From positions 1 through 22,227 of the IMG/VR virus record IMGVR_UViG_3300018432_000052: a DNA stretch of 22,227 bases. One strand, 5' to 3'. The DNA comes from a virus. Made by a program: the position numbers and the translations under genes. Below the pieces are notes generated by a model. It had not been told where the DNA came from. It was given only the letters and a program-made list of their open reading frames with translations, and did no database searches. Shown piece after piece: positions 2,619-21,496 of the stretch; positions within the stretch are counted from its first letter, which is position 1; the number at the start of each line of letters is the position of its first letter.

Positions 2619-3113
2619 ATGGCAAAAAAAGAGATAGGAAGACCATCAATATTCGACCAGGACATAGCAGATAAGCTTTGCGAAGAGATAGCGACATCCT
2701 CTAAAAGCCTTAGAACTATCTGCAAGGAAGAAGGAATGCCGTCAGTAAGAACAGTATTGTCATGGCTATCAGCGGGTGATAAGGAAGATGGAAACCCATT
2801 GTTTAAAGCTTTTCTGCGTCAATACGCGCGCGCGCGCGAAGAACAAGCGGATTTTCTTGCTGAGGAAATCATTGAAATCGCTGACGATGGGTCAAACGAC
2901 CTAATGACAGTGGGTAAAGGTGATGCCTCTTATGAAACTGAAAACAAGGAAGTAACAAATAGATCAAAGCTCAGGGTGGATGCCCGTAAATGGATTGCCA
3001 GCAAGCTTAAGCCTAAGAAATACGGGGATAAATTGGACATGGACCTCAATCTACCCGATACAGTTAAGTCATTTCTAATCAAGCCAGCGAGTGAACGGGA
3101 CAAAGGAGCTTGA
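2619..3113 (+). CDS. terS: terminase small subunit (Sf6-like)
   Basis: Recognises viral DNA and recruits the large subunit to start genome packaging. The 164-residue protein has the layout of the Sf6-type family: GRPS at 7-10, an N-terminal helix-turn-helix region (LCEEIATSSKSLRTICKEEG then MPSVRTVLSWL), the central YARAREEQADFLAEEI helix with IADD, and the C-terminal RSKLRVDARKWIASKLKPKK block followed by KYGD. Length is normal. It has one of the few good ribosome-binding sites in the window (AAAGGAG 9 bases before ATG). A pure (CG)7 run at 2825-2838 encodes the ARAR part of the conserved motif. Its end overlaps the large subunit by 23 bases, the classical pairing. Confidence 0.92.
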   Translation: MAKKEIGRPSIFDQDIADKLCEEIATSSKSLRTICKEEGMPSVRTVLSWLSAGDKEDGNPLFKAFLRQYARAREEQADFLAEEIIEIADDGSNDLMTVGKGDASYETENKEVTNRSKLRVDARKWIASKLKPKKYGDKLDMDLNLPDTVKSFLIKPASERDKGA

Positions 3114-4362
3114 GGTAAATGATAAATACATCCCTCTTATTGGGCTTGCTATCCGGCATTTGGTACTGTATGGTGGATCAGGATCAGGGAAAAGTAAGTT
3201 CGCGGCATTTAAAATATGCTTGAGAACTACCACGGAGAAGGGACATAAGTTTTTAGTGCTACGGAAGATAGCCGATACGATAAAGGAAAGTGTTTTTGCG
3301 GAATTAAAAAGTATGTTGTCAAGAATGGGGTGTTTACACGAATTTAAGATTAACGAAACAGATAAGACATTTAAGCATGTCCCGTCCGGTAATATGATCC
3401 TTTGCAAGGGGCTGGATGAACCGGAAAAGATAAAATCAATCGAGGGTATAACCGGGATGTGGGTAGAAGAAGCCACTGAATTTACTTCAGATGACCTTGA
3501 TCAGCTTGACCTTCGCATCCGTGGTGAAAAACCAAATTACGTTCAATACATCTATTCATTCAATCCTATTTCAGAAGATAACGAGACAGTTAAACGATTC
3601 GTGACCGTTGCCACGCTGCCGGCTAATACTTATGTCATCCACACCACACATGAGGATAACTTTTTCCTTACAAATGAAGACAGGCAGGTGCTTTATGACC
3701 TGAAGGAGAAAAACCCACTATTCTATGACGTTTACTGCCTTGGTATTCCGGGAGTAGTTGATAAATCAGGCAAATTCCTATACTCATACAAAAATGAACA
3801 GGCTATTGAAGGTCTGAAACTGAACGACAATCTGCCTATCTGGTTCACATTTGACTTTAACATCGATCCAATGACGGTGACCGTAGCGCAGCGGGACCAC
3901 ATGAAGAAGCTGACCTGCGTCAAGAATATACAGCTTGATAACTCTGACATCTACCAAATGACCGACCGGATTAAAGCGGATTATGCGGGAAGATATTGGA
4001 TAGTAACCGGTGATGCATCCGGGCACAACAGAACCGGGGCAGTAAGGGGAAAAACATCTTACTGGAAGATCATTAAATCAGAATTGAAGCTGAAAGACTT
4101 ACAAATGAAGGTCAGGCATAAGAACCTTAGCCACATTGAAAGCCGGGTTTTGTGCAATGCCGTAAATCAGACTGTGGATATCACCTTTGATAAAACCGGG
4201 TGCGCACCGCTTATAAACGATTGCAAATTTGGAAAGGTAGACGACCACGGAGAATTGATCAAGGACCGTAAGAAACAGAAGCTTGACTTCCTTGATGGTT
4301 TCCGCTACCTGGTAGATGCAAACTTTCATGATTACTTAAACAATCCTAAAAAATACAGATGA
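3091..4362 (+). CDS. terL: terminase large subunit (PBSX-type ATPase/nuclease)
   Basis: The packaging motor: an ATPase that drives DNA into the prohead and an RNase H-like nuclease that cuts concatemers. In 423 residues I see Walker A GGSGSGKS (28-35), Walker B MWVEEA (123-128), the coupling motif SFNP (156-159), then nuclease acidic residues D255 in FDFNIDP, D308 in GDASG and the D399/D402 pair in LDFLDGF. This matches Terminase_3 plus Terminase_3C, and both active sites look intact. The start is a GTG at 3091 within the small-subunit gene; the ATG at 3119 is out of frame. There is no clear ribosome-binding site, so translation is probably coupled to terS. Its stop overlaps the first sugar-cassette gene. 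Confidence 0.95.
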   Translation: MNGTKELEVNDKYIPLIGLAIRHLVLYGGSGSGKSKFAAFKICLRTTTEKGHKFLVLRKIADTIKESVFAELKSMLSRMGCLHEFKINETDKTFKHVPSGNMILCKGLDEPEKIKSIEGITGMWVEEATEFTSDDLDQLDLRIRGEKPNYVQYIYSFNPISEDNETVKRFVTVATLPANTYVIHTTHEDNFFLTNEDRQVLYDLKEKNPLFYDVYCLGIPGVVDKSGKFLYSYKNEQAIEGLKLNDNLPIWFTFDFNIDPMTVTVAQRDHMKKLTCVKNIQLDNSDIYQMTDRIKADYAGRYWIVTGDASGHNRTGAVRGKTSYWKIIKSELKLKDLQMKVRHKNLSHIESRVLCNAVNQTVDITFDKTGCAPLINDCKFGKVDDHGELIKDRKKQKLDFLDGFRYLVDANFHDYLNNPKKYR

Positions 4363-4892
4363 TCTGTCATATCATAGGTTGCGGTGAAAGCGGTAAGTAT
4401 TGGGACGGCAATGGCTTTTCCATCGGGGTAAATGACTGCTTTAAATTTGGTCATCATCCTGATATTTTAATTGTAGTGAATAATATGCGAAGATTCCAGG
4501 AAAGGAAAAAGATTATCGATGCTACGCGCCCACGGGTAAAACTGTACGGGCTTGGGTCATGGTCAAACCATCCAAACTATCAGCATATCGACTACATGAA
4601 CATTTGGAAAGGTGATCTTAAAAAAGGGAAGCTTTATAAAAGCAAAACTTCCCCGTTCATAGCGGTAACAATGGCTTATTCATTAGGATATGATAAGATA
4701 GTTCTTTGGGGGGTTGACTTTGTTAATCACAGGATTGTAAAGGGATCGAAGCTAAAAAGTGAGGTTTCAAATTTTGAATCATTACAAAAGGCTTTACTAA
4801 AGAATGGAGCTTCAATGTATTTAGGTGGAACGAATGAGTTTACGAACCAGGGAGCTTTGAAAGATGCATTACCAAATTTTATACAGATATGA
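4359..4892 (+). CDS. GT42/DUF115-like putative glycosyltransferase
   Basis: A 177-residue Rossmann-like protein. The start MICHIIGCGESGKYWDGNGF looks like a nucleotide-binding loop (G7, G9), followed by IGVNDCFKFGHHPDILIVVNN. Later TSPFIAVTMAYSLGYDKIVLWGVDF (97-121, written here as two joined motifs) closely resembles the conserved part of Cst-type sialyltransferases (GT42) and of DUF115 proteins, where a comparable Thr-Ser stretch and a G-x-DF motif sit in the CMP-sugar fold. It is shorter than bacterial sialyltransferases (about 250-290 residues), so it could be a reduced member or a relative with a different donor. It is ATGA-coupled to terL and to the next gene, which opens the sugar cassette. 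Specificity is not predictable. Confidence 0.5.
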   Translation: MICHIIGCGESGKYWDGNGFSIGVNDCFKFGHHPDILIVVNNMRRFQERKKIIDATRPRVKLYGLGSWSNHPNYQHIDYMNIWKGDLKKGKLYKSKTSPFIAVTMAYSLGYDKIVLWGVDFVNHRIVKGSKLKSEVSNFESLQKALLKNGASMYLGGTNEFTNQGALKDALPNFIQI

Positions 4893-5089
4893 AAAACAGT
4901 ATTGAAAATCGTTTCAACTGCCCTAAGAGGCTTTGGAATAAGTTCAGTGACAAAGGTAAGATTGCTTACAACAACGTACGAGGCGTTAAGCCAGATATGA
5001 TTATGCCTAACCATAATGCCTTGATGGGGCCGGTTGGATGGGAAACTGTGTCCCATAATTATGCATGCTTCGCTGCCTGGGAGTTCTAA
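4889..5089 (+). CDS. small conserved phage hypothetical protein, 66 aa
   Basis: A 66-residue protein starting from an ATGA overlap. It reads ENRFNCPKRLWNKFSDKGKI, then an asparagine-rich middle, and ends GWETVSHNYACFAAWEF. The pattern FNCPKRLW-x-KFS, a PNH segment and a terminal SHNYACFAAW resembles short phage proteins I recall with two helices separated by a His-containing loop, but no family name or function is known to me. It ends just before a 140-base segment without a gene that contains a structured RNA candidate. Confidence 0.6.
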   Translation: MKNSIENRFNCPKRLWNKFSDKGKIAYNNVRGVKPDMIMPNHNALMGPVGWETVSHNYACFAAWEF

Positions 5090-5112
5090 GATACATTTGG
5101 TGTTTTAGCCTT

Positions 5113-5198
5113 GGGTATGGGAAGCCATACTTAACCAGGGTACGGGTCGGGATCATCTTCGGGTGAGTTCGTGACGAACAAGGGGGAATCCGATCACC
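5113..5198 (+). ncRNA. candidate structured RNA / leader of the glycosyltransferase gene
   Basis: The 140 bases between genes (5090-5229) hold no ORF but several helices. GGGTATGG (5113-5120) pairs with CCATACTT (5125-5132) across a GAAG loop. GGTCGG plus AT (5145-5150, 5152-5153) pairs with ATCCGATC (5188-5195), with G5151 bulged. GTTCG (5167-5171) pairs with CGAAC (5175-5179). GGTGA (5162-5166) can instead pair with TCACC (5194-5198), which competes with the second helix for bases 5194-5195, so two mutually exclusive folds exist. I cannot match it to a named RNA family. It could be a cis-acting leader of the gene at 5230, a small RNA, or chance. Confidence 0.35.
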
Positions 5199-5229
5199 TC
5201 GCGTCAAGCCAAATTAAAAAAAGAAACGA

Positions 5230-5868
5230 ATGAGTTTTTGTACAATAACACCAGACAGGAACGACCGGCCAGAATTCACAGAGTTCTGTAAACACCAGTT
5301 ATCGCGAATGACGGTTAAGCCGGATCATTCCTATTTTATCGACTATGCCCCGGTATCAAAAGGCGTTGATCTTATCGAACGGTTTGAAAAAGGTGTAGCA
5401 CGGGCGAAAGCAGACGGATTTGAATATGTGTATGTAATTGAAAACGATGATTGGTATCCGGCAAACTACTTTGAAAAGATGCATTTCGGTTACCCTGATG
5501 GCCTGCAGTACGACATAGTAGGCATTCCGTTCAGCCATTATTACCATATAGGCAACAGAAGGCATCAGTTATTAAACCACCCGCTCAGAGCTTCTTTGTT
5601 CTGCACAGGCTTTAAAACTAAGATTCTGAAAGACTTCAGACATGGACAAAATCTTGACATATCCATTTGGAAGCATATCCGAGAAACCCGCTGTAGTCTT
5701 AAATTTGTGTATGATTTATTACCGATAGGAATAAAGCACGGAATGGGGCTTTGTGCTGGAATGGGGCATAATAAGATGAAATTAAAGAATGAGGATAAAG
5801 ATATGAGCTGGCTGAGATCACACGTGGATTCTGATGCATGGACATTTTACAACACTTTGAAACTATGA
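5230..5868 (+). CDS. GT-A fold putative glycosyltransferase, 212 aa
   Basis: Probably transfers a sugar from a nucleotide donor. The N-terminus MSFCTITPDRNDRPEFTEFC resembles the opening beta strand of GT2-type enzymes (ITP-x-R-x-DRP), followed by YVYVIENDDWYPANYFEKM; the ENDDWY at 71-76 sits where the DXD metal/nucleotide-binding motif should be. The next conserved-looking block, SLFCTGFKTKIL, resembles the acceptor-loop region. At 212 residues it is about the size of a bare catalytic domain, with no transmembrane or second domain, so it is cytoplasmic. No ribosome-binding sequence is evident; the preceding structured segment may control it. Its stop is ATGA-coupled to the next small ORF. 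Substrates are unknown. Confidence 0.6.
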   Translation: MSFCTITPDRNDRPEFTEFCKHQLSRMTVKPDHSYFIDYAPVSKGVDLIERFEKGVARAKADGFEYVYVIENDDWYPANYFEKMHFGYPDGLQYDIVGIPFSHYYHIGNRRHQLLNHPLRASLFCTGFKTKILKDFRHGQNLDISIWKHIRETRCSLKFVYDLLPIGIKHGMGLCAGMGHNKMKLKNEDKDMSWLRSHVDSDAWTFYNTLKL

Positions 5869-6002
5869 AAGAAATTAAAGACAAAAAGAAAATTGAGGTA
5901 TCCAAAAAACTACTCGGATTAAAAGTAGTTGAGGAAAAATTAGATCGTAAACCGTTAACCCCAACGGGTCACAGGCGCGGTTGTAACTGCGGAGGAAAGT
6001 AG
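5865..6002 (+). CDS. small basic protein with C-terminal CNC motif, 45 aa
   Basis: The ATG at 5865 overlaps the previous stop as ATGA, and the 45-codon frame ends in TAG at 6000-6002, just ahead of the next gene at 6006. The product is lysine-rich (MKEIKDKKKIEVSKKLLG...) and ends RRGCNCGGK, a two-cysteine C-terminal tail that looks deliberate rather than random. The last codons also supply GGAGGAAAG, a good ribosome-binding site for the downstream membrane protein. No family name is known to me. Coupling on both sides and the patterned terminus support it. Confidence 0.6.
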   Translation: MKEIKDKKKIEVSKKLLGLKVVEEKLDRKPLTPTGHRRGCNCGGK

Positions 6003-6005
6003 GTC

Positions 6006-6320
6006 ATGAGCGCACAAGATTTACTGACAACATTAATCATATCCGCTGCATGGTGTATAGGCTTTCATACTTTCATAAAGAAGGTTGTCTTTGCTGAGAT
6101 CATCGGATATGAGATTGAGGATAAATGGGAAGGCTATCCGTGGTATCTGAAAGTCATAATGAAGCCGTTATTCGCCTGCCCTTACTGCATGGCATCGATC
6201 CACGGCACTGTAATATTCTTTGCCTTCGTTCGCGGGTATCTTCCTTTGATAATGTGGGTGCCGTTCTGTATCTGTCTTTGTGGTCTGAATTACTTTTTAA
6301 CTCAATTTTTTACTGAATGA
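6006..6320 (+). CDS. small inner-membrane protein with CxxC motif, 104 aa
   Basis: A 104-residue membrane protein. Apolar segments lie at about residues 6-20, 62-76 and 80-98 (LTTLIISAAWCIGF; GTVIFFAFVRGYLPL; MWVPFCICLCGLNYF), suggesting two or three membrane spans. Between the first and second is KPLFACPYCMASIHGT, a CxxC motif of the kind seen in small phage membrane proteins. The start at 6006 is supported by GGAGGAAAG upstream. It lies within the glycosyltransferase cassette, so it could anchor or flip a lipid-linked sugar, as small flippase-like proteins do in O-antigen conversion modules; there is no sequence proof of that. Confidence 0.6.
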   Translation: MSAQDLLTTLIISAAWCIGFHTFIKKVVFAEIIGYEIEDKWEGYPWYLKVIMKPLFACPYCMASIHGTVIFFAFVRGYLPLIMWVPFCICLCGLNYFLTQFFTE

Positions 6321-7126
6321 TAGTGACCGTCCGATCCACCCGTAACCCTGATATAACAAAGCAGATGTCTTTGCAAATGGCAATGAGACATCCCAAGAGG
6401 TGGAAAGTTCTCGATCAGATAGACATTGTTTCGGTTAATTATGAACCTGTCACTGTGCCGGTTCCTGATGGAGTTAAAATCGTTGTCGCGGTAATAGTCT
6501 ACAACCGATTCAAAAACATTCAGGAGTGGGTAAGATGCTGGCAAAAGTCAATCACTGATAACGCGCAATTGGTCGTAATCCATAATTACAAAACACCACA
6601 GGAGAAAAAGAGTTATGGTGACTTCTGCCGGAAAAATGGTATCGGTTATGTTCCCAGGGAAAACATCGGTTTTGATATTGGGGCACTGCAGGACGTTTCA
6701 AAACAGCGCTTAAAAGGCTTCCCAGAATATGACTACCTGCTTTGGTGTACTGATGACCTTTGGCCTCAACGTAAAACATTCATTCAGGAATATTGGGCAG
6801 TATACAAAGAAGACGTGAAAGCCACTTGTTACGAGATCAGCAAAGAAGTTAACCCACATATCCGCACTACTGGATTTATGATGAAAAAGGAAGATGTACA
6901 GCGGATAAAATTCAACGTTGACCCGATAATAACAAAGTCCCAATGTTACGACTTCGAGCATCGGGATAAAGCAAATTCATTGATTGATCAGGTTAAAAAA
7001 TTCGGGGCACCTGTACAGATTTGCAATATCGAATGCTCCCCTATGTGGGACACTGGACACAATAGTTTTGAAGCTAAAATGAGAAGGTCAAGAAGGGAAA
7101 AGGAACATACTGAGAATTTCAAATGA
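6317..7126 (+). CDS. putative glycosyltransferase, 269 aa (paralogue of 7251 gene)
   Basis: The main domain (about residues 52-260) starts KIVVAVIVYNRFKNIQEWVRCW, continues with RENIGFDIGALQDV, and has LLWCTDDLWPQRK with the DXD-like TDD at 145-147, then HIRTTGFMMK (181-190), ITKSQCYDFEH and MWDTGHN. The same blocks appear in the same order in the gene at 7251, so the two are paralogues. The overall plan is that of GT2-like or rhamnan-synthesis-type enzymes. The first 50 residues (MIVTVRSTRNPDITKQMSLQ, then HPKRWKVL) are an extra segment missing from the paralogue, perhaps a small partner-binding module. It is cytoplasmic and ATGA-coupled on both sides. Donor and acceptor are unknown. Confidence 0.6.
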   Translation: MIVTVRSTRNPDITKQMSLQMAMRHPKRWKVLDQIDIVSVNYEPVTVPVPDGVKIVVAVIVYNRFKNIQEWVRCWQKSITDNAQLVVIHNYKTPQEKKSYGDFCRKNGIGYVPRENIGFDIGALQDVSKQRLKGFPEYDYLLWCTDDLWPQRKTFIQEYWAVYKEDVKATCYEISKEVNPHIRTTGFMMKKEDVQRIKFNVDPIITKSQCYDFEHRDKANSLIDQVKKFGAPVQICNIECSPMWDTGHNSFEAKMRRSRREKEHTENFK

Positions 7127-7254
7127 GCAAAGCAAAAAAATTCTTACAGAAATTAAAAAAGCACCTCAAAGAAAGCGGCAAGCAAATGCAGGAAACTTTG
7201 AATGGATGGAAGAGTATTGAAGAAAGGTTGAGAAAAAAAGCTGAGAAGGGATGA
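7123..7254 (+). CDS. small basic helical protein, 43 aa
   Basis: An ATG at 7123 overlaps the stop of the glycosyltransferase upstream, and its TGA at 7252-7254 overlaps the ATG of the next glycosyltransferase at 7251, so this 43-residue ORF exactly bridges two genes with ATGA at both ends. The sequence (MSKAKKFLQKLKKHLKESGK, then LNGWKSIEERLRKKAEK) would form one or two amphipathic, strongly basic helices, with about 15 lysines or arginines. No homologue is recognised. It may be a membrane-surface or nucleic-acid-binding peptide, or a simple coupling peptide. The exact fit between neighbours is the main evidence. Confidence 0.6.
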   Translation: MSKAKKFLQKLKKHLKESGKQMQETLNGWKSIEERLRKKAEKG

Positions 7255-7898
7255 GAATACTGATAGTTGTCTGTATTTACGACCGGCTTGAGAACCTTAA
7301 AAAATGGGTTCACTCCTGGAATTTATGCGATAAGATGGGGGCAAAACTTGTGATTGTTCACAATGTGGATAAGTTTAAAAGCAATCCTTTTGCAAAGATT
7401 TGTAAGACTCACGGGATAACATATATCAGGCGCCATAACATCGGCTACGAAACCGGCATAATTCAGGACGTATTTTTAAACAGGCTACCAGTGCGGTACA
7501 ATTGGGATGCCCTCCTATTCTGCACTGATGACACTATACCAATGCGCAAAAATTTCCTGAGCTATTATATCAACGAGATTTCAAAGCCTGACGTAGGGGC
7601 CGCATGTATGGAGGTATCAGGAGTTTGGACACCGCACATAAGAACTACCGGATTTTGTGTTACCCGTGAGGTAGCAAATAAAATTCATTGGATTCATGAT
7701 CCGGTAAGCACAAAAGAGCATTGTTATTTTTTCGAGCATCAAGGATTTGAAGACACTATAATGTCGCAAGTATTAAAAATGGATAAGCGAGTTATCCAGT
7801 TGTCATCTATAAAAGAAAGTGTATTGTGGGATACTGACCATACCGCGCTCGATAGAATGGATGAGTGGAGGAAAGAGTTCAATTTAATGTCAGAATGA
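7251..7898 (+). CDS. putative glycosyltransferase, 215 aa (paralogue of 6317 gene)
   Basis: This protein begins directly with the catalytic domain (MRILIVVCIYDRLENLKKWV) and carries RRHNIGYETGIIQDV, LLFCTDDTIPMRK with TDD at 92-94, HIRTTGFCVTRE (129-140), STKEHCYFFEHQ and VLWDTDHTALD. Each block has a counterpart in the 269-residue gene upstream, whose N-terminal extension it lacks. The divergence is high enough that the duplication is old or the two were acquired separately. It is predicted to be cytoplasmic, with GT-A fold and metal-dependent if TDD acts as DXD. The stop overlaps the start of the reductase/methyltransferase gene, which may supply its modified sugar. Confidence 0.6.
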   Translation: MRILIVVCIYDRLENLKKWVHSWNLCDKMGAKLVIVHNVDKFKSNPFAKICKTHGITYIRRHNIGYETGIIQDVFLNRLPVRYNWDALLFCTDDTIPMRKNFLSYYINEISKPDVGAACMEVSGVWTPHIRTTGFCVTREVANKIHWIHDPVSTKEHCYFFEHQGFEDTIMSQVLKMDKRVIQLSSIKESVLWDTDHTALDRMDEWRKEFNLMSE

Positions 7899-9841
7899 AA
7901 ATTATTGTTTTCGGAGGAAATGGAACATTAGGAAAAGAGTTACAGAAAATAAACCCTGCTTTGATTTGCCCCACAAGCGAAGAGGTAAATATTCATGATG
8001 AGTTCAGGATAAACCACTTTATCGAAACACATCACCCGGACATTGTAATTAATGCTGCTGCTATAATTGATAACCGGGTACTGGAAAACCAGCCGGCCAA
8101 ATCCATACAAACCAACATCATCGGGGCCGCTAACATCGCCAATGTCTGCATAGAGCATAATATCAGACTTGTTTACATCTCCACGGATTACATATACAAA
8201 GGTGATCGCGGAAACTATCTTGAATCTGATGAAATACTACCTTTCAACTTCTATGCATGGACAAAATTAGGCGGGGAATGCTCCGCGCATGGTGTAAAGA
8301 ATTACCTTATAATCCGTTGCTCTTTTGGGAAGTCAGACTTCTCATATCCCCAGGCCTTTATTGATAAATGGAGTTCAAAGGATTATGTAGATATTATCGC
8401 TCCGATGATTTACGAGGCCACAGTAAGCCCGCTTACCGGTGTGCTGAATATAGGAACCGATCGTAAAACGCTATTCAATTACGCCAAGCAACGCAATGAA
8501 AACGTCAAAGGTGTAAAACTTGCGGATACTAATTTCTTTACTCCTTACGATACATCCTTAAATCTTCAGCGGTGGTTTAATTACAAAGCATCAAATCCAA
8601 TAGCCAAACCACACACGCACTGCCGCGCATGCGGATCGGAGTCCATGGTCAAATACTTGGATCTCGGATTAATGCCGCTGGCAAACAATCTTGAGCAAAC
8701 ATCACTTCGGGCCAAAGAGGTCGAAAGATTCCCTTTGCAGGTGATGTTTTGCAAGGATTGCGGACTAAGCCAGCTATCAGTGATTATCGACCCTGAAAAG
8801 ATGTATTCTTATTACACCTACCGATCAGGCATTAATTCAGGGTATATTACCCATTGTAAAGAAATGGCCCGGCAATTACTCGGTAGGTATCAAAAGCCTG
8901 AAAGCTTCTTTCACATCGACATAGCCGGGAATGATGGCACCCTTCTAAAATGCTTCAAGCAAATTGCCTCTTATGATTACTCCTGTCTTAATGTGGATCC
9001 AGCTTCAAACCTTGCGGCCATCGCAGAGCATGATGGCATACCTTCCCTTGTTGATTTCTGGGGATTGGATACCGCCTCAACCATTTCAATAACGTACAAT
9101 GAAGCAGACCTGATTACTGCGACAAACGTATTTGCCCACGTTGACAATATTACTGACTTCCTCATGGGCGCAATCATGGCCTTAAGGGATGAAGGGGTTT
9201 TAGTTATAGAGTGCCCTTACATTATAGACTTCATTGAAAACTTTGAATTTGATACCGTTTATTTTGAGCATTTAAGCTACATGAGCGTTTTGCCTATAAA
9301 GAACCTTTGCGATAAAGTAGGCTTAAAATTGATCAGCGTAGAGCGTCAGACCATCCACGGGGGAACTATCCGGATGACAATTACCCCGAAAGTATCTACC
9401 CATAACACTGAAAAATCAGTTGAAGAGTTTTGCAATAAAGAGCTATCAGGCGGGTATAACTTAATATCCACATATCAGCAGTGGAGTACCGATGTAAAAA
9501 CAGCAATTCAAACATTCCATAACAGCCTTTTGGACATGAAGAAAAGCGGTTACAAGATTGCCGGCTATGGCGCATCAGCGAAGGGAAACACGTTATTAAA
9601 CAGCGCTGGCATCAATACAGACATCGTTGATTATATCATTGATTCCACACCTGAGAAGATAGGTAAGTTCAGCCCAGGAACAGGGATACCGATTAAACAC
9701 CCTCAAGAATTACTCAAAGCAGAACCGGATTTCCTTCTGATTCTAGCCTGGAACTTCAAAGATACCTTGATGGATAATGCCCGGAAATTAGGGTTCAAGG
9801 GAAAGTTTATTATACCCATACCAACATTTGAGATAATATGA
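7895..9841 (+). CDS. fusion of RmlD-like sugar-nucleotide reductase and sugar C-methyltransferase
   Basis: A 648-residue bifunctional enzyme. Residues 1-230 are an extended SDR domain of dTDP-4-dehydrorhamnose-reductase type: GGNGTLG (7-13), VYISTDYIY around 96-101, catalytic Y120 and K124 in YAWTK, and VLNIGTDRKT near 183-192. Residues 240 onward match NovU/TylCIII-type NDP-sugar C-methyltransferases: a zinc site with C243/C246 and C286/C289, a SAM-binding block IDIAGNDGTLLK (341-352), and the C-terminal domain GYGASAKGNT (557-566), DYIIDSTPEK and LAWNFKD. The expected product is a reduced, C-methylated branched deoxysugar nucleotide. A GTG at 7865 would extend it, but ATG 7895 overlaps the previous stop as ATGA and starts the Rossmann strand, so I prefer it. 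A biosynthetic fusion of this size is unusual in a phage. Confidence 0.85.
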   Translation: MKIIVFGGNGTLGKELQKINPALICPTSEEVNIHDEFRINHFIETHHPDIVINAAAIIDNRVLENQPAKSIQTNIIGAANIANVCIEHNIRLVYISTDYIYKGDRGNYLESDEILPFNFYAWTKLGGECSAHGVKNYLIIRCSFGKSDFSYPQAFIDKWSSKDYVDIIAPMIYEATVSPLTGVLNIGTDRKTLFNYAKQRNENVKGVKLADTNFFTPYDTSLNLQRWFNYKASNPIAKPHTHCRACGSESMVKYLDLGLMPLANNLEQTSLRAKEVERFPLQVMFCKDCGLSQLSVIIDPEKMYSYYTYRSGINSGYITHCKEMARQLLGRYQKPESFFHIDIAGNDGTLLKCFKQIASYDYSCLNVDPASNLAAIAEHDGIPSLVDFWGLDTASTISITYNEADLITATNVFAHVDNITDFLMGAIMALRDEGVLVIECPYIIDFIENFEFDTVYFEHLSYMSVLPIKNLCDKVGLKLISVERQTIHGGTIRMTITPKVSTHNTEKSVEEFCNKELSGGYNLISTYQQWSTDVKTAIQTFHNSLLDMKKSGYKIAGYGASAKGNTLLNSAGINTDIVDYIIDSTPEKIGKFSPGTGIPIKHPQELLKAEPDFLLILAWNFKDTLMDNARKLGFKGKFIIPIPTFEII

Positions 9842-10245
9842 TTTGTGAAGCAGTGATGAAGATGTTTGTAAACCGTACCATGATAAGGTATAAATCTGAA
9901 ACATGGGAATGCATAATAAACAACCGGTATAAAGCCACTTTTGCCAAAGTCGAAAGCAATGGTGAGCTGAATGTTTCGGTTTTAAAGATCCTGAGCAATG
10001 ACATTCTGAAATATTTTAATAACGAGGAAATAAAGATTCTTTTTGATCCCAGGAAAGAGAAAGAGCGTCAGGAAGAATTATCTTTACAAGGCAAGCGGCA
10101 CTGCCAGGACTGCGGATGCGATAAACCGATAAAAGATTTTCACCATGACCACGGAAAGCCTACGTATAGCTGTATAAGATGTTGGAATAAAGTTTCCCGG
10201 TATTGGTCACCGGAAGGAAGAAGAATTTTAAGAATGAGAGCATGA
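9838..10245 (+). CDS. zinc-ribbon phage protein, 135 aa
   Basis: A 135-residue protein coupled by ATGA to the sugar-enzyme gene. The first 70 residues are beta-rich (MIRYKSETWECIINNRYKAT). After a charged helix (ERQEELSLQGK) comes a metal-binding region: C89, C92 and C94, histidines at 102, 103 and 105, then C112 and C115 in CIRCWNK. The C-x2-C ... C-x2-C arrangement with F and HG between resembles the zinc ribbons found in HNH-type and related small phage proteins, but no catalytic HNH triad is clear. It sits immediately upstream of the putative tail-chaperone gene. DNA, RNA or protein binding are all possible. Confidence 0.6.
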   Translation: MICEAVMKMFVNRTMIRYKSETWECIINNRYKATFAKVESNGELNVSVLKILSNDILKYFNNEEIKILFDPRKEKERQEELSLQGKRHCQDCGCDKPIKDFHHDHGKPTYSCIRCWNKVSRYWSPEGRRILRMRA

Positions 10246-10931
10246 AAGCAAAAACAAAACAAAGTAAGATTTCAAAAAATACATTCAAACGCATCCCAGG
10301 GGTAAAAGCCAATTTAAAAGGAATGCGAAAACGCGCTAACTCCTTTATTGCGGATCAGGTAGGTAAACCTGTCATAAACGACAAAATCTACAACCTCCAT
10401 CACCCGGACTTTCACGGTAAAACAGAATTTGCCTTTGAATCTCAAGGGGTAAAATATTACAACTTTGGAAAGGATACTGATGTAAGATATATGCGGTACG
10501 TATTCATGCAGAACTTCCTACAAGAGGTCAACTTACGGGCCAGCCTGGAAACCTTACAGGAAGAAAACAAGATTATGACCGCATGGCTTGACGGTTCAAA
10601 AGGCAATATCAACATCGGCAAAGCCCTGGAAATACTCTCCATCCAACGCCAAAGGTGCAATCTATCCTTTGAGCCGGAAACAGTGTTCAGGCTTGCTTCA
10701 TGCCTTTATTTCGATGAAACAGAGGATTTAAGGGATTGGAACAAGGATCACAACGAGAAAAAGATAAAGCAGTGGAAGGAGAGCCACACCATAGATTTTT
10801 TTTTCCACAAACTATTTCAAGAATTGACCGGCTTGAAAGATATATCTCGAACCGCTTTGCAAAACTATTTAGCTCAGGTTCCAGAAACCTTAAAAGGGTG
10901 GCGTTTGATGGTAGACATCCTCTCGCGGTAA
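10242..10931 (+). CDS. putative tail assembly chaperone (gpG-like position), 229 aa
   Basis: Starts at ATG 10242, overlapping the previous stop (ATGA); an upstream in-frame GTG at 10203 is less likely. The N-terminus is very basic (MKAKTKQSKISKNTFKRIPG). From residue 80 it is helical: DVRYMRYVFMQNFLQEV, LEILSIQRQRCNLSFEPETV, FRLASCLYFDETEDLRDW, then KKIKQWKESH and TIDFFFHKLFQELTG. The CLYFDETEDL-KKI-WK order resembles proteins I recall just ahead of the tape measure in Bacteroidota phages. Tail assembly chaperones bind the tape measure and recruit tail-tube subunits. The last quarter overlaps a long open -1 frame that begins before a T9 slippery run, as in lambda G/GT. The role is inferred from position and layout. 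Confidence 0.5.
   Translation: MKAKTKQSKISKNTFKRIPGVKANLKGMRKRANSFIADQVGKPVINDKIYNLHHPDFHGKTEFAFESQGVKYYNFGKDTDVRYMRYVFMQNFLQEVNLRASLETLQEENKIMTAWLDGSKGNINIGKALEILSIQRQRCNLSFEPETVFRLASCLYFDETEDLRDWNKDHNEKKIKQWKESHTIDFFFHKLFQELTGLKDISRTALQNYLAQVPETLKGWRLMVDILSR
10796..10804 (+). promoter_or_regulatory. T9 slippery run, possible -1 programmed frameshift
   Basis: Nine consecutive T residues lie in the chaperone-like gene. Read in its frame as GA-T TTT TTT TTC, they form the heptamer T TTT TTT, which permits -1 slippage of both tRNAs. The -1 frame is open across the site and on to the TAA at 11069-11071, immediately before the tape measure gene, the same geometry as lambda G and T. Slippage here would replace the last 42 residues of the chaperone by about 89 different ones. 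An AAAAAG at 10759-10764 is a second possible slip site. Confidence 0.35.
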
Positions 10932-11071
10932 TGCAGGATTTTATAGATAATAAGTGTGAAGAAATTAAGATTTTATCTAACTTTGATTTGTCGCTGGAAA
11001 GCGAGTTCCTAAAAATGTCCGTTTACGACTTCTTTTTTCATGTGTGGGTTAAGTCGAATCACAAAGAATAA
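10931..11071 (+). CDS. small ORF or -1 frame extension before tape measure, 46 aa
   Basis: The ATG at 10931 overlaps the TAA of the chaperone-like gene (TAATG), giving a 46-residue product: MQDFIDNKCEEIKILSNFDL, then a short acidic helix and VYDFFFHVWVKSNHKE. It lies in the frame -1 to its neighbour and in the same frame as the tape measure, whose GTG lies 40 bases past its stop. It is either an independent, re-initiated gene or the end of a longer frameshifted chaperone (gpGT-like) product; the protein-like composition of this last segment fits both. Two-component tail chaperones are the rule at this place in siphophage genomes. Confidence 0.55.
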   Translation: MQDFIDNKCEEIKILSNFDLSLESEFLKMSVYDFFFHVWVKSNHKE

Positions 11072-11074
11072 CAT

Positions 11075-11114
11075 CCACAGTCTACTTTTAAATTCTATGC
11101 TTATGAGACTGTGG
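11075..11114 (+). promoter_or_regulatory. inverted repeat covering the tape measure start codon
   Basis: CCACAGTCT at 11075-11083 and AGACTGTGG at 11106-11114 are perfect 9-bp inverted repeats with a 22-base loop. The GTG start codon (11111-11113) lies inside the downstream arm, and no Shine-Dalgarno sequence is visible. In mRNA the hairpin would hide the start, as expected for translational control of the tape measure by ribosomes reading the upstream ORF, which ends at 11071. Confidence 0.55.
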
Positions 11115-13363
11115 CAAAAAAGACAATCAATGTCATTTACAAGGTCGATGACGCTCAACTTTTAAAGCTTAAAAAATCGCTTGTTGATTCTGAGAAGGAA
11201 TCTAAAAAGTTAAGCAACGAACTTGATAAGACAGGTAAGGCCGCAAAGAATGCGGGCAAGGAAGGAAGTGACTCGTTCTTCAATCTCAGCAACATTGTTA
11301 AAGCTATTTCGGTCGCTGCCATCACTCAGCAGTTATTCAATTTTACAAAAGAGGTAATCAAGGTAAGGGGGGAGTTCCAAAAGTTTGAAGCAGTACTTAC
11401 AAACACACTTGGCAGTAAATCCGCTGCACTAATTGCCTTAGGCAGAATCAACGAATTCGCAAAATCAACTCCTTACGGGGTATCTGAATTAACAAACTCA
11501 TTCATAAAGCTTGCTAACCGTGGCGTGGAGCCAACGGTAAAAGAAATGCGAGCTATCGCAGACTTATCCGCCACACTTGGGAAAGACTTTGATCAGGTTA
11601 TTGAGGCCATCCTGGATATAAACAACCCCGAACGCTGGAAGGAAATAGGCGTTAAGGCTGAAACTGCCGGGGATAAAGTAAAACTATCGTTCAGAGATGC
11701 AAAAATAGAAGTTGACAGAACCGTTCGCGGTGTTACCGATGCGGTCGTTGCATTGGGTCAATTAAACGGGGTTGCAGGAAGCACAGAGGCTATTTCCCGC
11801 ACTTTGGCCGGTCAAACATCCAACCTTTCCGATTCATGGGAACAGCTCTTAAACACCATAGGAAAAGGTAATGAAGGGGTTTTATTCGATGCCGTAAGCC
11901 TATTGTCAAATGCTATAGACAAGGCGAATGAGCTGCTTAAAAACAACGAACAGAAATTTGAGGAACTAACATCTCAAACGCTTGCTGCCGAAGTCGATTC
12001 TTTTACCAATTGGGTTAACGTTTTGGGCGATGTTGAAAAGGCAGAGCAGATATTCAGTAAAAAAAGAGAAGCACGTTTAGCCTCAATATCAAAAAGACAA
12101 AGAGAGCTTTTAGATCAGGGGGATGCTGGTGAGGGGAATATTATCGAGCGTGAAAAAGAATTAGCCCAACTGAGAAGCTTGTATGAAATCTATGACAGCG
12201 AACTACCTAAGGCGATAGCAGAAACAGCGGCAGCACTGAAAAAGAAAGGTGGCGGGGATGAAGAAACTATTGGCTTAGTCGCTGCACTTGAAAGAAAGAT
12301 TAACGACTTAACCAAGGCCATCCAAAACACCACACAAACCGGTGATCTTGGTAAGGATGGATTACTTGTAAAACAACTTAAGGAAACCAGGGAAGAGCTT
12401 GATAAATTATTAGGTAAAGATACTCAGGATAGTAAGGCTTTCGATGAGTATATGAAGCAACTCGAAGCCGAAATGAAGGCGGAAGAGGATCTAAGAGAAC
12501 GGACCGAAAAATCAAGGCTTGATAGAGAGCGTGACAGCGCGAAAAATAGCGCTGATCTTAAAACCTATTATTATGAACTCGAGAAGAAGAAACTTCAGGA
12601 AATTGAGGATGAGAAATTTAAGATAGCTGAGGATGCTGCGGCCCGCAAAGCGGACCTTGAAGAAGATATTCGGGCTAAATCTGAAAGATTGGCTGAGTCA
12701 GTTTTTGATTTCATTCTATCAAATCGTAATGATGATATGGAGCATATCCGTGGTTATTACGATGAACAAATTGAATTGGCTGGTGACAATGAGAAAGTTC
12801 AAAAAGAACTCAGGATAAAGAGAGATAGAGACGTTGAAGCAGCCAGGGCGCGTCAGAAAGAATCAGAGAAAAAAGAAGCAAAGCAAAGAATACTGATAAG
12901 CGGACTTGTTGCTATTGCCAAAACTTTTGATCAATGGGGATACCCTGCTGGTATAATTCCAGCCGCATTAATGGCCGCTCTCACTGCTGTACAGGTTGCC
13001 ACAGTTGATAAATATAAAGACGGTGGATGGGTTAAAGGCCCAGGGGGAGAAACTGAGGACAGGGTTCCTATTCTTGCCTCTCCCAATGAATTTGTAGTAA
13101 AAGCGAGATCAGCAAAACAATCTCCACGGCTACTTGAATTAATCAATAACAGAAAGATCGATGATAGAATCCTGCAAGTAGCCAGTGGTGGCGGTTCTTT
13201 CAGTGATTCCCGTATGGTGTCGGAATTGGGCGCAATCAGAAAAGAAATTCAGAAAAACAGACCTGACGATGTAATCGAGCGTCACGGTAAGCTTATGAGG
13301 GCCACAAAGCGAGGCAAAGATTACGTGATGTACATGAAGACTAATGTAATGGGGGATTTCTGA
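11111..13363 (+). CDS. tail tape measure protein
   Basis: Sets tail length and is threaded through the tail lumen. The 750-residue product starts with GTG. It opens with a heptad-rich coiled coil (10-45), then the tape-measure domain: FTKEVIKVRGEFQKFEAVL, FAKSTPYGVSELTNSFIKLA, an AISRTLAGQTSNLSDSWEQL block, and long charged coiled coils to about 590. An apolar stretch follows (ISGLVAIAKTFDQWG, then AGIIPAALMAALTAVQVATV), and then YKDGGWVKGPGGETEDRVPI and ASPNEFVVKARSAK, a C-terminal pattern I associate with tape measures of Bacteroidota phages. At the usual rule of about 0.15 nm per residue, a siphovirus tail of roughly 110 nm would be predicted. Its stop overlaps the next start. Confidence 0.88.
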   Translation: MAKKTINVIYKVDDAQLLKLKKSLVDSEKESKKLSNELDKTGKAAKNAGKEGSDSFFNLSNIVKAISVAAITQQLFNFTKEVIKVRGEFQKFEAVLTNTLGSKSAALIALGRINEFAKSTPYGVSELTNSFIKLANRGVEPTVKEMRAIADLSATLGKDFDQVIEAILDINNPERWKEIGVKAETAGDKVKLSFRDAKIEVDRTVRGVTDAVVALGQLNGVAGSTEAISRTLAGQTSNLSDSWEQLLNTIGKGNEGVLFDAVSLLSNAIDKANELLKNNEQKFEELTSQTLAAEVDSFTNWVNVLGDVEKAEQIFSKKREARLASISKRQRELLDQGDAGEGNIIEREKELAQLRSLYEIYDSELPKAIAETAAALKKKGGGDEETIGLVAALERKINDLTKAIQNTTQTGDLGKDGLLVKQLKETREELDKLLGKDTQDSKAFDEYMKQLEAEMKAEEDLRERTEKSRLDRERDSAKNSADLKTYYYELEKKKLQEIEDEKFKIAEDAAARKADLEEDIRAKSERLAESVFDFILSNRNDDMEHIRGYYDEQIELAGDNEKVQKELRIKRDRDVEAARARQKESEKKEAKQRILISGLVAIAKTFDQWGYPAGIIPAALMAALTAVQVATVDKYKDGGWVKGPGGETEDRVPILASPNEFVVKARSAKQSPRLLELINNRKIDDRILQVASGGGSFSDSRMVSELGAIRKEIQKNRPDDVIERHGKLMRATKRGKDYVMYMKTNVMGDF

Positions 13364-15643: not shown

Positions 15644-16852
15644 ATGGCAAACGAGAAAATTTCCGGGCTTGAGGCGCTTACCAGTATTAATGGTACTGAA
15701 GAGATACCTGTGGCTAAAGGTGGGGCTAATTATAAAATTAAAATTCCCCGAATAGTAACACCTGAATTATTTGACGCTGTGGGCGATGGCGCTACAGATG
15801 ACACCACCCCATTGCAAAACGCTATCAATTCAGGTAACGTGGTTTTCCTTGCCAATAAAAATTATAGGATTACGTCCACCCTGCAGCTACCACAAGGCTG
15901 TCATATAATGGGTTCCGGTGAATTCTCCACTATTTCAACCGTGGCAGATATTACCATGTTGAATGTTGATGGCCCTGCAGGGGATGACTCACAAGTTTAC
16001 CTTTCAAACTTTACTTTGCTAGGCGATGGACAATCAAATCAAATAGGGTTTTACTGTGTAGCTACAGGAACCGACTTCTTCACAAAGAACAAACTTTACA
16101 ATATCAACTTCCTGGAATTAGGGGGCAGTGGACTTTTTATAGGTAGTGAGCAAATTTCCTTTATCGGATGTGTTGATGCTGTAAGTTGTTTCGCTCAAAA
16201 CTGCGGGGTCGGGTTTAATGTAGATATAAAATGTGAATACAACCACTTTTTAGACTGTAAAGCTTTCTCAAATACAGTGGGCGTTAAGATCGCAGGCGGG
16301 AACAACTCTTGGGTAGGTGGGGGTATCGAGTTTAACGACATTGGCATCCAAATGCGCACCGGATTGAACTCAGGGAAAAGCATATTCGAAGGCGCTACCA
16401 TGAATCACAATGTGCAACTATTGGATTTGTTAGGAGTAACCGCAGGTGTAAAGTTTCAGGGAAATTACATGGTGTTTGGTTCATGGTCTATCGAGGACTG
16501 CAATAATGTAAAGTTCTACAATAACACAATTAACACAGTGACTGATACCATAACCATTACAAACTGTACGCTGACAGAATTTAAGTGCAACAACTTCACC
16601 ACAGATCATACGCTTGCAATTACTGGGGATCTTCCTTTATGGTTAGGTAATACTTGGGATTTAGGGAATGTGCCAGCAGGTGTTTATGAATCTGTACAGG
16701 CATCACTGGCACTTATGAATTCGTCAGGACTCTATTGGGACGATCCAAACGTTGACGGAACATGGAGATTAATTCAGTCAGGAGATAACCTTGTTTTCCA
16801 GCAACGGGAAGCAGGTTCTTACGTGACTAAAAGTACTATAAGCGGGGCTTAA
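15644..16852 (+). CDS. right-handed beta-helix tailspike / receptor-binding protein
   Basis: A 402-residue tailspike. Residues 1-35 form a short attachment module (MANEKISGLEALTSINGTEE then IPVAKGGANYKIKI), a form common in phage fibre N-termini. At 43-61 is the pectate-lyase-3 signature FDAVGDGATDDTTPLQNAI, which opens a beta-helix seen as repeating short strands with Asn and aromatic stacking (QISFIGCVDAVSCFAQNCGVG, CNNVKFYNNTINTV). The C-terminus after 360 (NVDGTWRLIQSGDNLVFQQR) forms a small separate domain. This fold binds or cleaves surface polysaccharides; the active-site residues cannot be placed by eye, so depolymerase activity is possible but unproven. It lies four bases after the hub-like gene and before another tail gene. 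Confidence 0.8.
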   Translation: MANEKISGLEALTSINGTEEIPVAKGGANYKIKIPRIVTPELFDAVGDGATDDTTPLQNAINSGNVVFLANKNYRITSTLQLPQGCHIMGSGEFSTISTVADITMLNVDGPAGDDSQVYLSNFTLLGDGQSNQIGFYCVATGTDFFTKNKLYNINFLELGGSGLFIGSEQISFIGCVDAVSCFAQNCGVGFNVDIKCEYNHFLDCKAFSNTVGVKIAGGNNSWVGGGIEFNDIGIQMRTGLNSGKSIFEGATMNHNVQLLDLLGVTAGVKFQGNYMVFGSWSIEDCNNVKFYNNTINTVTDTITITNCTLTEFKCNNFTTDHTLAITGDLPLWLGNTWDLGNVPAGVYESVQASLALMNSSGLYWDDPNVDGTWRLIQSGDNLVFQQREAGSYVTKSTISGA

Positions 16853-18297: not shown

Positions 18298-20118
18298 ATG
18301 GAATATCTAAATGATGATATAGAAAAATTCCTGAAAAAGGTATGTGTCCCGCATGATGAAAAGGACGCTCACAAAACCCTTCAGGAAAATTGCCATCAAG
18401 CCTATAAAGACGCATGCGACCATTATGAAGAAATGGCCGTGCATGTCTATGGTACACAACCGCGCTCACTGCTTGAAAAGATCAGGCCCAGGGAAGACCC
18501 TGAAATAAGAGAATACCGGCTTGCGTCTTATCGCCCTATTACAAAATCGACTTGTAAAAAGGCCATCAACGTAATCAATAAAATCTTCAACCCTAAATTT
18601 TCATCAATAAGGTTTGAGGATAACGCCAAGGCGCAATTATTAAAAAGGTATTCATTGGAGGATTACCCACGATTTAACAGTGTGGTAAATTACCTTTCAG
18701 ATTACGCTTTAAAGAAAGGCTTCGCTGATCCAAATGCAATATTTTTAGTCCAGCCTTACAAGCTTCCGTACTCCACTACAGAAAGGATAATGCCTTATGT
18801 TTCCTGCTACCTCAGTAAGAACATACATTATATCGATGAGAATTACGCACTTCTTTTCGAGAAATACGAAAGGGATGAAAAGGCGCAAAGATGGTATTAT
18901 ACCTTTGCTGATAAAGTAGGGGTGTATAATCTTTTGATAGAGAAAACGACCTCACAGGATGCCGTAATCACAGAGATCGGCAGGTACATGCACAACCGCG
19001 GTAAACTTCCTTTCTGGTTTTTAGGTGGGGAGTATTCCGAAAAATATGAAGGGTTATTTGAATCATTCATCTACCCCGCTGTGCCTTTCTGGGATGAGGT
19101 TATCATGGATCATTCCGACCTTCGCGGGTCTATCCGCATGCACATGTTTCCTCAAAAATGGGAAGTGGCTGATGAATGCGATTATATTGAAGATGGTAAA
19201 TATGGTTGTGAAGGCGGTATAATTTCTCCGGATAAAGGCAAGCCGCACACCTGCCCATCATGTAACGGGGCTGGACGTAAGTCAGTTAAAAGCCCTTATC
19301 AAACATATTGGGTGCCTAAAGACAGGTTTAATAATCCCGATGGTTCGTCAACTGGTTTCAGCGCCCCTTTTGGCTACGTTGAGCCAGGCACAGAGACAAC
19401 CAAATTACTGAAAGAGGAAAGGGACTTAGGATTAAGGAACGGGCTTTCAGCACTTAATATGGATGTTTTAAACAACATGGGAACAAATCAATCAGGTATA
19501 TCAAAAGACATTGACCGGAGAACTGAACTGCAGGAGTTTTTACAGAAAATAGCTGATCAATACTTTTGTGTACATCTTCCCAATATATTTGATTGGTTCG
19601 CGTGGTATATGTTTGGGGTTGAAGAATCAAACAATGAGGAAAGCGTTCGTAAAATTCAGCCAGAGATTTCAAAGCCTGCTGAATTCGATGTGTATACAAC
19701 CGGTGAACTCACCGCGCAGTTACAACAGGCCAAAACCGCAAAAGTAAATCCTTCTTACCTTGCAGTAAAACAAGCCGAAGTCCAGAATAAAGAATTTCAG
19801 ACACACCCTGAGCTATTACTCCCCCTTAACCTAGAATTGAAGCTTGACCCGCTGGCTGAACAAACCAGGGAGGATGTTACTATGATGCTGATGAATCAGA
19901 CGGTTACAAAACATTCAGCTATTATTCATGACAATATCCGGGCTTTCGTAAAACGTGCTTTAGAAGAGGATGAAAGTTTTGCAGACAAGGAGTACTCCGA
20001 GCAAATGGAAATCCTGAAAGGCTTTGCTGAAGAAATTATTGAAGAAAATCAGGTTCAGCTTGACATGACTTTATTGGAAGATCCGATAGAAAAAGATGAA
20101 CCTATCCCCGCTGAATGA
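18298..20118 (+). CDS. portal protein
   Basis: Forms the dodecameric ring through which DNA enters and leaves the capsid. The 606-residue product opens with acidic helices, contains SYRPITKSTCKKAINVINKI and YSLEDYPRFNSVVNYLSDYA (portal clip/wing region), and later TGELTAQLQQAKTAKVNP and the helical C-terminus EDVTMMLMNQTVTKHSAIIH. Between them is a metal-binding insert: C294, C304, C319 and C322 in CPSCNGAGRKSVKSPYQTYW, a CxxCxGxG knuckle that I recall in portals of Bacteroidota phages. Length is at the upper end for the family. It is coupled to the Mu gpF-like gene by ATGA, the usual portal-minor head pair. The portal call rests on that pairing, length and the C-terminal helices. Confidence 0.75.
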   Translation: MEYLNDDIEKFLKKVCVPHDEKDAHKTLQENCHQAYKDACDHYEEMAVHVYGTQPRSLLEKIRPREDPEIREYRLASYRPITKSTCKKAINVINKIFNPKFSSIRFEDNAKAQLLKRYSLEDYPRFNSVVNYLSDYALKKGFADPNAIFLVQPYKLPYSTTERIMPYVSCYLSKNIHYIDENYALLFEKYERDEKAQRWYYTFADKVGVYNLLIEKTTSQDAVITEIGRYMHNRGKLPFWFLGGEYSEKYEGLFESFIYPAVPFWDEVIMDHSDLRGSIRMHMFPQKWEVADECDYIEDGKYGCEGGIISPDKGKPHTCPSCNGAGRKSVKSPYQTYWVPKDRFNNPDGSSTGFSAPFGYVEPGTETTKLLKEERDLGLRNGLSALNMDVLNNMGTNQSGISKDIDRRTELQEFLQKIADQYFCVHLPNIFDWFAWYMFGVEESNNEESVRKIQPEISKPAEFDVYTTGELTAQLQQAKTAKVNPSYLAVKQAEVQNKEFQTHPELLLPLNLELKLDPLAEQTREDVTMMLMNQTVTKHSAIIHDNIRAFVKRALEEDESFADKEYSEQMEILKGFAEEIIEENQVQLDMTLLEDPIEKDEPIPAE

Positions 20119-21014: not shown

Positions 21015-21442
21015 TATAATCCACCAAATACATTACTTAACGGGTGGTTGTATCTTGTGACTATCTCAAATCTTTTAATTGAATAAGAAATCCCGGCAAC
21101 GGCATCCATCTTCCCTTGGCTTAAAGGTTCGGATTCGTCAGTAACATTGTGCGATCCATAAACACCTATCTGAAAGCCGGCATTTAAACTGAGGTTTTTG
21201 ATAGGATAAAACCGGTATGCGAATGTGCCGTTCAATGAGTTGTTTTCAAGCATCCCTGATTTTTGGGATATAAATTGAATTTCTCCAAGGAAGCCGGAAT
21301 GATCTGACATCTTTTTGGTTGTTCCGATGGTGGCGTAATAACTTACTTCTTCCGAATAAGTAGCCCCGGCACCAATGTAATACGATTGTGAAAAGCTTGA
21401 GATGGTGACAAAAACAAAGAGGATTGATAATAGTGTTTTCAT
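20981..21442 (-). CDS. outer-membrane beta-barrel protein (moron)
   Basis: The only convincing minus-strand gene. I chose ATG at 21442 (minus): it gives a textbook signal peptide, MKTLLSILFVFVTISSFSQS, with cleavage probably after SQS; longer frames upstream are poor. The 153-residue product then shows alternating strands with aromatic girdles (YYIGAGATYSEEVSYYATIG; GFQIGVYGSHNV) and ends AGINFTFSR, consistent with an eight-stranded OmpX/OmpA-like barrel of Bacteroidota type. A reverse-oriented, self-contained gene among head genes is a classical moron; lambda Lom is a known analogue. Possible roles are superinfection exclusion, adhesion or receptor masking. A palindrome, TTACAATGTAA at 21486-21496, and a terminator hairpin lie upstream. 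It overlaps the gpF-like gene by 34 bases. Confidence 0.8.
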   Translation of the reverse strand: MKTLLSILFVFVTISSFSQSYYIGAGATYSEEVSYYATIGTTKKMSDHSGFLGEIQFISQKSGMLENNSLNGTFAYRFYPIKNLSLNAGFQIGVYGSHNVTDESEPLSQGKMDAVAGISYSIKRFEIVTRYNHPLSNVFGGLYQAGINFTFSR

Positions 21443-21485
21443 GACTTTTTTCTTTAAAGGTAATCGAATACCGTGCCAGACGACA

Positions 21486-21496
21486 TTACAATGTAA
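21486..21496. promoter_or_regulatory. palindrome in the leader of the beta-barrel gene
   Basis: TTACA-A-TGTAA is a perfect 5+1+5 palindrome, 44 bases upstream of the barrel gene start on the minus strand, between its upstream terminator and the coding region, where a promoter must lie. It could be an operator. Short palindromes of this size arise by chance at appreciable rates. Confidence 0.25.

Follow-up and report, generated by a model that had tools for sequence, protein, structure and literature searches.

Jumbo cyanophages are known to carry clusters of several glycosyltransferase genes (PMC7824862), glycosylated virion proteins have been described in mycobacteriophages (Freeman et al., 2023, cited in PMC12619734), and Megavirinae have rare-sugar pathways for glycosylated capsid fibrils (PMC10117803). 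Particle glycosylation in tailed phages has been shown in few systems so far. The present analysis concerns a sugar-modification cassette in the phage record IMGVR_UViG_3300018432_000052 of IMG/VR, the whole of which (22,227 bases, probably a fragment) is called the window below. The cassette lies between the large terminase gene, terL, and the tape measure gene, and the genes of this interval discussed here are designated A to J from left to right. The reading favored with modest confidence is that of a horizontally spread phage glycosylation module, through which a C-methylated, reduced sugar is attached, most likely to a virion protein. An earlier note on this DNA had proposed a carbohydrate-modification cassette in phage late genes, a proposal borne out by the GT-A fold predicted for F and H, the match of I to TylC3, and homologous cassettes beside terL, portal, or capsid genes in many other phages.

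Sugar Enzyme and Predicted Glycosyltransferases

Gene I (7895-9841, plus strand) encodes a 648-amino-acid protein in which a shortened RmlD-like extended short-chain dehydrogenase/reductase (SDR; residues 1-230) is followed by a three-domain sugar 3-C-methyltransferase resembling TylC3 and TcaB9 (about residues 240-648), and the earlier note had rightly recognized it as a reductase/C-methyltransferase fusion. Pfam E-values are 1.3e-31 for RmlD_sub_bind, 1.8e-16 for Methyltransf_13, and 4e-47 for Methyltransf_14, with all three scores above the gathering cut-offs; the zinc-binding Methyltransf_13, S-adenosylmethionine (SAM), and Methyltransf_14 domains score 60.5, 33.1, and 160.4 bits against cut-offs of 31.3, 27, and 23.5, respectively. 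The D-mycarose 3-C-methyltransferase TylC3 (PDB 4rv9) is matched across 410 amino acids with an E-value of 3.5e-76, and the other best solved relatives are sugar 3-C-methyltransferases (5t64) and TcaB9 (3ndi). Furthermore, the YFEH of I aligns with the YHEH of TylC3, that is, with the Y-x-E-H that we take to be the catalytic motif of TylC3-type methyltransferases, and at least 33 of 37 phage C-methyltransferases carry Y-x-E-H in register with it; in the other four the pattern search stopped at an earlier match, and two of these show YFEH when aligned. The C-terminal part of I is thus predicted to be a TylC3-type 3-C-methyltransferase acting on C3 of a nucleoside diphosphate (NDP)-4-keto sugar. 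With TylC3 and TcaB9 (4rv9, 3ndi) it shares full-length similarity, the zinc-binding and both methyltransferase domains, and Y-x-E-H; unlike them, it is phage-encoded and joined to an RmlD-like reductase.

The reductase part belongs to the RmlD_sub_bind/extended SDR superfamily (110.2 bits; cut-off 27), with dTDP-4-dehydrorhamnose reductases (3sc6, 1vl0) as the best PDB matches. The Rossmann (GGNGTLG) and YxxxK (YAWTK) motifs, common to I and RmlD, are intact. However, RmlD has 285-300 residues compared with about 230 in I, and I, at 101.9 bits, lies far under the cut-off of the RmlD equivalog TIGR01214 (224 bits).

F (6317-7126, plus strand; 269 amino acids, with the domain starting at about residue 54) and H (7251-7898, plus strand; 215 amino acids) are paralogues, as had been noted before, with 37% identity over 211 amino acids (E = 1e-48). 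Neither has a significant match in Pfam, PHROGs, or NCBIfam: Pfam Glycos_transf_2 is matched at E < 0.01 by two of 49 F-family members, and F and H of the window reach neither this level nor the cut-off of glycosyltransferase (GT) family GT2. The AlphaFold model of F, built from the 49-member alignment, has a mean predicted local distance difference test (pLDDT) score of 88.6. Comparison of this model with the PDB using Foldseek yielded 304 matches at E ≤ 0.001, the best of which are all glycosyltransferases—cellulose synthase, chondroitin polymerase, SpsA, GT8, RmlT, and others—with GT-A matches at E of about 1e-7 and a probability of 1.00. Among viral models, the fold matches are RgpF-like and GTA-type proteins. 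W71, W75, D146, D147, R183, and E214 are invariant in the 49 family members. Because the predicted fold is confident, the top Foldseek matches are GT-A enzymes, and D146-D147 is invariant, F and H are assigned with confidence, at the level of the model, as GT-A glycosyltransferases. The glycosyltransferase family that F defines is not represented by any Pfam or PHROG model.

Two further genes resemble transferases. For C (5230-5868, plus strand; 212 amino acids, with an ENDD motif), the proposed label of a GT2-like protein is weak by Pfam (Glycos_transf_2, E = 0.15) but gains from homologues, 26-31% identical, in three sibling cassettes (contigs L015, L023, and L041), of which the L041 copy matches Glycos_transf_2 at E = 0.006. 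A (4359-4892, plus strand; 177 amino acids) is a putative MptE-like/DUF115/GT42-type sugar transferase. Its earlier labeling as GT42/DUF115-like is backed by weak profile matches, at about E = 0.007: E-values are 0.0069 for Pfam MptE-like, 0.035 for WaaZ, and 0.16 for the PHROG alpha-2,3-sialyltransferase, the score of 16.6 bits lies below the GT42/MptE-like cut-off of 34.6, and a single-sequence AlphaFold model has a pLDDT of 35. Positional analogues of A, just upstream of the C-methyltransferase or F in L015 and L023, align with it at E = 5e-4 in a single hhalign comparison, and the L015 protein matches MptE-like at E = 0.0018. Alignment of the transferase-like proteins with non-carbohydrate families, which the earlier note had named as evidence that would speak against a cassette of this kind, did not occur.

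Recurrence in Other Viruses

A first alignment, in which F was combined with four domains of the phage LR756511.1 (595 kb), gave four IMG/VR loci, and an enlarged alignment gave F homologues in 47 other IMG/VR contigs, whose gene maps represent several unrelated phage backgrounds. The earlier note had suggested looking for the same gene order in other Bacteroidota phages, and a core gene pair was found repeatedly: in 38 of the 47 loci, as in the window, a C-methyltransferase gene lies within 1.2 kb of F on the same strand. An RmlD-like gene is present in 19 of the 47, with a reductase/C-methyltransferase fusion like that of the window in 10. Pairwise distances of F and of the C-methyltransferase correlate (Mantel r 0.53; maximum of 2000 permutations, 0.29), indicating that the two tend to travel together. 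In L032 (10297-11518) and L033 (8439-9592) the C-methyltransferase is broken over two or three frames, through sequencing errors or decay of the module.

Scans of IMG/VR with the single proteins terL, F, A, and portal found no relatives; the F-family alignments and the tape measure protein did find some. Outside viruses, PLSDB plasmids gave no F homologue, and neither did the genomes of 84,980 prokaryote species, scanned twice with short peptide patterns able to recover no more than 20 of the 47 viral loci; the family is likely virus-restricted. Among deposited phage records, full F domains occur in one uncultured huge phage only, and a few other phages, Synechococcus phages among them, have C-methyltransferases of the type of I. 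The huge phage (L002, LR756511.1, 595 kb) has four F-type domains at 5099-11540, three of them fused in a 969-amino-acid protein behind a GT2-like region, and this series lies near an HldE-like sugar kinase/nucleotidyltransferase.

Fusions of F with GT2 or GT8 domains are frequent; the L003 protein combines F with GT8, another F domain, and Methyltransf_24. The sibling cassettes also carry GT2, GT8, GT21-like, TOD1-type, Stealth-like, and Glyco_tranf_2_4 transferases, together with methyltransferases and a sulfotransferase. Such additional decorating enzymes would also suit a product other than virion or envelope, namely a small diffusible glycoside or a modified host protein, as would the C-methyltransferase family itself, whose best-known members (TylC3, TcaB9) belong to pathways for the deoxysugars of antibiotics. 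However, the genes recognized beside the cassettes include none for a polyketide, a peptide synthetase, or another aglycone, and this explanation is considered improbable.

Insertion into a Late Operon

The open reading frames (ORFs) lie where the earlier note had placed them, apart from corrected starts of D (now 5865) and I (now 7895), with terL (3091-4362, plus strand; Terminase_3, E = 1.6e-46) upstream as the resident left flank. A base-by-base check confirmed most of the head-to-tail packing described before: eight junctions are 4-bp ATGA overlaps (terL/A, A/B, C/D, E/F, F/G, G/H, H/I, and I/J), and the two others are a 140-nt gap (5090-5229), as reported, and a gap at 6003-6005, which is 3 nt and not four bases.

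Used as a query, the resident tape measure protein of the right flank (11111-13363, plus strand; PHROG tape measure, E = 1.1e-38) identified 11 further contigs, 40-51% identical (L051-L061), and no F, C-methyltransferase, or RmlD gene was found in the 11 fetched stretches of these relatives. L051, L052, and L055 have the tape measure, portal, and next head gene in common with the window, and terL is likewise common to the window and L052, L053, L055, and L056, a full-length homologue 34% identical being present in the cassette-free L052, L053, and L056. The order in L056 is terL, a 124-amino-acid gene, a CxxC membrane gene homologous to E, a 211-amino-acid gene, and tape measure, and the interval from terL to tape measure is about 1.6 kb, compared with 6.7 kb in the window. 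L051 has an L056-like order from its 125-amino-acid gene onward. The putative tail-assembly gene of the right flank (10248-10931, plus strand) also has a probable distant homologue at the corresponding place in the cassette-free relatives (one comparison: 19% identity, E = 0.001).

E (6006-6320, plus strand), a small CxxC membrane protein, had been counted among the cassette genes, and this part of the earlier description has to be withdrawn: its homologue (37% identity over 71 amino acids) keeps the same place in L051-L056, relatives without glycosylation genes, and E is therefore a resident late gene rather than cargo. Its candidacy as a cassette member or GtrA-like flippase was rejected on this ground and for want of a GtrA match. 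The insertion accordingly consists of two blocks, 4359-6002 and 6317-10245, on either side of E. At the position of the first block, L051 has a SAM methyltransferase gene (716-1267; Methyltransf_23, E = 4e-12) upstream of the membrane gene, and modification genes may enter preferentially at this site. Likewise, a Flavobacterium phage distantly related to the L006 group (32% identity in the capsid protein) has the capsid gene followed directly by small and structural genes, where L006 has a cassette.

Because cassette-free relatives keep the same flanks, the cassette is an insertion into the late operon and not a chimera, and its position inside the terL-to-tape-measure interval implies expression with the late virion genes. 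The existence of relatives without the cassette had been named beforehand as a possible sign of an assembly chimera; such relatives exist, but their conserved flanks show insertion. An assembly chimera or chance run of ORFs is refuted, with a negligible residual probability: no support for it was found. The window has no close DNA relative in the phage collection, and ATGA coupling joins the cassette to phage genes at both ends. The even GC content of the cassette (0.39-0.43), together with the recurrence of the gene pair in 38 of the 47 other contigs, rules out chance and misassembly as its origin.

Proposed Pathway and Acceptor

In the proposed pathway, the host would supply an NDP-4-keto-6-deoxyhexose, probably dTDP-4-keto-6-deoxyglucose (dTDP, deoxythymidine diphosphate) made via RmlA/RmlB. 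The C-terminal part of I, as its homology to TylC3 and its conserved domains and motif suggest, would add the methyl group of SAM to C3 of the keto sugar, and the RmlD-like N-terminal part would reduce the 4-keto group to give an NDP-3-C-methyl-6-deoxyhexose; the fusion of the two in one protein fits channeling. F and H, with the help of C and perhaps A, would then transfer the 3-C-methyl sugar and neighboring residues to an acceptor, most likely a virion protein. This choice of acceptor is based on the repeated position of the module within head/packaging operons, and on the lack of any DNA or lipid-carrier acceptor system among the records searched. The glycan might shield the particle or tune adsorption.

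A terL, portal, or capsid gene could be detected in 23 records, which served to assess the position within such operons. In 21 of them the nearest such gene lies within 5 kb of the cassette, and in 21 it is on the same strand; the median distance of 1.6 kb is biased downward because short contigs force small distances. This bias is one of several points that weigh against the favored reading. Many contigs are fragments, so that absences are weak evidence; the family evidence for gene A is weak; and the donor and acceptor are ones that we infer. The RmlD-like gene is missing from about half of the sibling cassettes, and the final sugar may therefore differ among them or need a host reductase.

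One alternative acceptor is DNA, whose bases would be glycosylated by the transferases as a protection of the phage against restriction. In T4-type DNA glycosylation, the acceptor base is provided by a dCMP/dUMP hydroxymethylase or a TET oxygenase; genes for these were not found in the window. Thymidylate synthase/hydroxymethylase (PF00303) was found in none of 40 records, seven of them over 100 kb and many of them fragments. Tet_JBP was found in one of the 40 (L016), by a search that had no positive control genome but did match L016. To our knowledge, there is no dedicated C-methyl sugar pathway for DNA glycosylation. Some viruses do encode transferases for the hypermodification of DNA (Pyle et al., 2024, cited in PMC12619734), and the Tet_JBP gene of L016 lies about 4.5 kb from the cassette; DNA hypermodification nevertheless appears very improbable as the general function. 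This Tet_JBP oxygenase (L016, G013; 16096-16503), the only one among the 40 records, could mean that DNA modification is involved in that phage.

A second alternative, using the same sugar chemistry, is a late change of the host surface glycan (lipopolysaccharide or capsule), for example to keep progeny from binding to debris again or to shut out other phages. Similar glycosyltransferase/nucleotide-sugar clusters of jumbo cyanophages have been assigned a role in altering the capsule or O antigen of the host (PMC7824862), a point that also counts against a virion acceptor. Weak similarity to RgpF, a protein of rhamnan synthesis, in two F-family members points in the same direction. Elsewhere, C-methylated deoxysugars occur in antibiotics and certain lipopolysaccharides, which likewise suits a host glycan. 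On the other hand, GtrA and tyrosine integrase were each found in none of 36 records, including the window, in searches with positive controls, so that neither GtrABC-type serotype conversion nor other lysogenic-conversion apparatus was recognized in them. Co-transcription with head genes would, moreover, leave little time late in infection for rebuilding the envelope. Remodeling of the host surface is the main rival of the favored reading, regarded as unlikely though with an appreciable chance of being correct. With DNA and lysogenic conversion disfavored by these negatives, modification of a virion protein or of a host glycan by soluble transferases remains.

The favored acceptor, a virion protein, leads to a specific chemical prediction, namely a methyl-branched deoxysugar on the particle, and makes the pair of F and C-methyltransferase genes in head/packaging operons a searchable signature for particle glycosylation. 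A fuller version of this reading, put forward tentatively and with somewhat less than even confidence, is that a mobile virion-decoration module, comprising a virus-restricted glycosyltransferase family and a 3-C-methyl-6-deoxysugar pathway, has spread into late operons across many unrelated phages and gives tailed phages a dedicated methyl-branched particle glycan. If true, phages carry their own branched-sugar pathway for building the coat of the particle.

Other Features of the Window

The remaining small ORFs of the interval are all on the plus strand: B (4889-5089; 66 amino acids, ATGA-coupled to A), without a family match in Pfam or PHROG; D (5865-6002; 45 amino acids counted from the ATGA start); the lysine-rich G (7123-7254; 43 amino acids); and J (9838-10245), a small zinc-finger-like protein with weak similarity to Lar and endonuclease VII (PHROG E-values of 4e-4 and 0.0016). 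An ATGA overlap links J to the end of the cassette. J has no homologue among the cassette-free relatives and may be a gene of homing or anti-restriction type brought in by the insertion. Between B and C lies an untranslated stretch of 107 nt (5106-5212, not assigned to a strand), which is hairpin-rich and the most GC-rich of its length in the contig (55%, compared with 41%). A structured RNA in the gap 5090-5229 was considered and rejected: Rfam gave no match, BLAST no relative, and folding z-scores were -1.0 to -1.4.

Elsewhere, the window encodes an Sf6-type small terminase, terS (2619-3113; E = 1.2e-36), a portal protein (18298-20118), a virion structural protein, and a tailspike-like protein. 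Shine-Dalgarno-like motifs precede two of 26 genes (8%; background, 13%). Few such motifs are expected for translation in Bacteroidota, and the host is probably a member of this phylum. An ORF of 199 amino acids at 20981-21580 is on the minus strand, opposite to every other gene. It has an internal Bacteroidota-like signal peptide, MKTLLSILFVFVTISSFSQ, a beta-barrel-like pattern, and no PHROG match, and its product is possibly a phage-encoded outer-membrane protein.

Comparison with Known Systems

The earlier note knew of single glycosyltransferases in phages but of no set like this, a remark that holds in part. The multi-gene glycosyltransferase clusters of jumbo cyanophages (PMC7824862) and the glycosylated mycobacteriophage virions cited in PMC12619734 precede it, but no description of the pair of F and C-methyltransferase was found in the open-access literature, to which the search was confined.

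Megavirinae resemble the proposed system in using virus-encoded, bacterial-type rare sugars for the particle (PMC10117803), and mycobacteriophages resemble it in having capsid or tail proteins as the target (PMC12619734). However, Megavirinae are eukaryotic giant viruses, to whose proteins the F family is similar at the level of the fold only, and the mycobacteriophage glycan was observed on the particle, whereas the present module is predicted from genes and includes a phage-encoded C-methyl sugar pathway. Jumbo cyanophages likewise combine several phage glycosyltransferases with NAD-dependent epimerase/dehydratase-type enzymes (PMC7824862). Their clusters are large, occur in large phages, and contain several known GT families and full sugar production, in contrast to the compact core of F and C-methyltransferase (with or without RmlD) found here in the head/packaging operons of mostly smaller phages. 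Overall, phage glycosylation clusters are known, and the F/C-methyltransferase module appears to be an undescribed variant of them.

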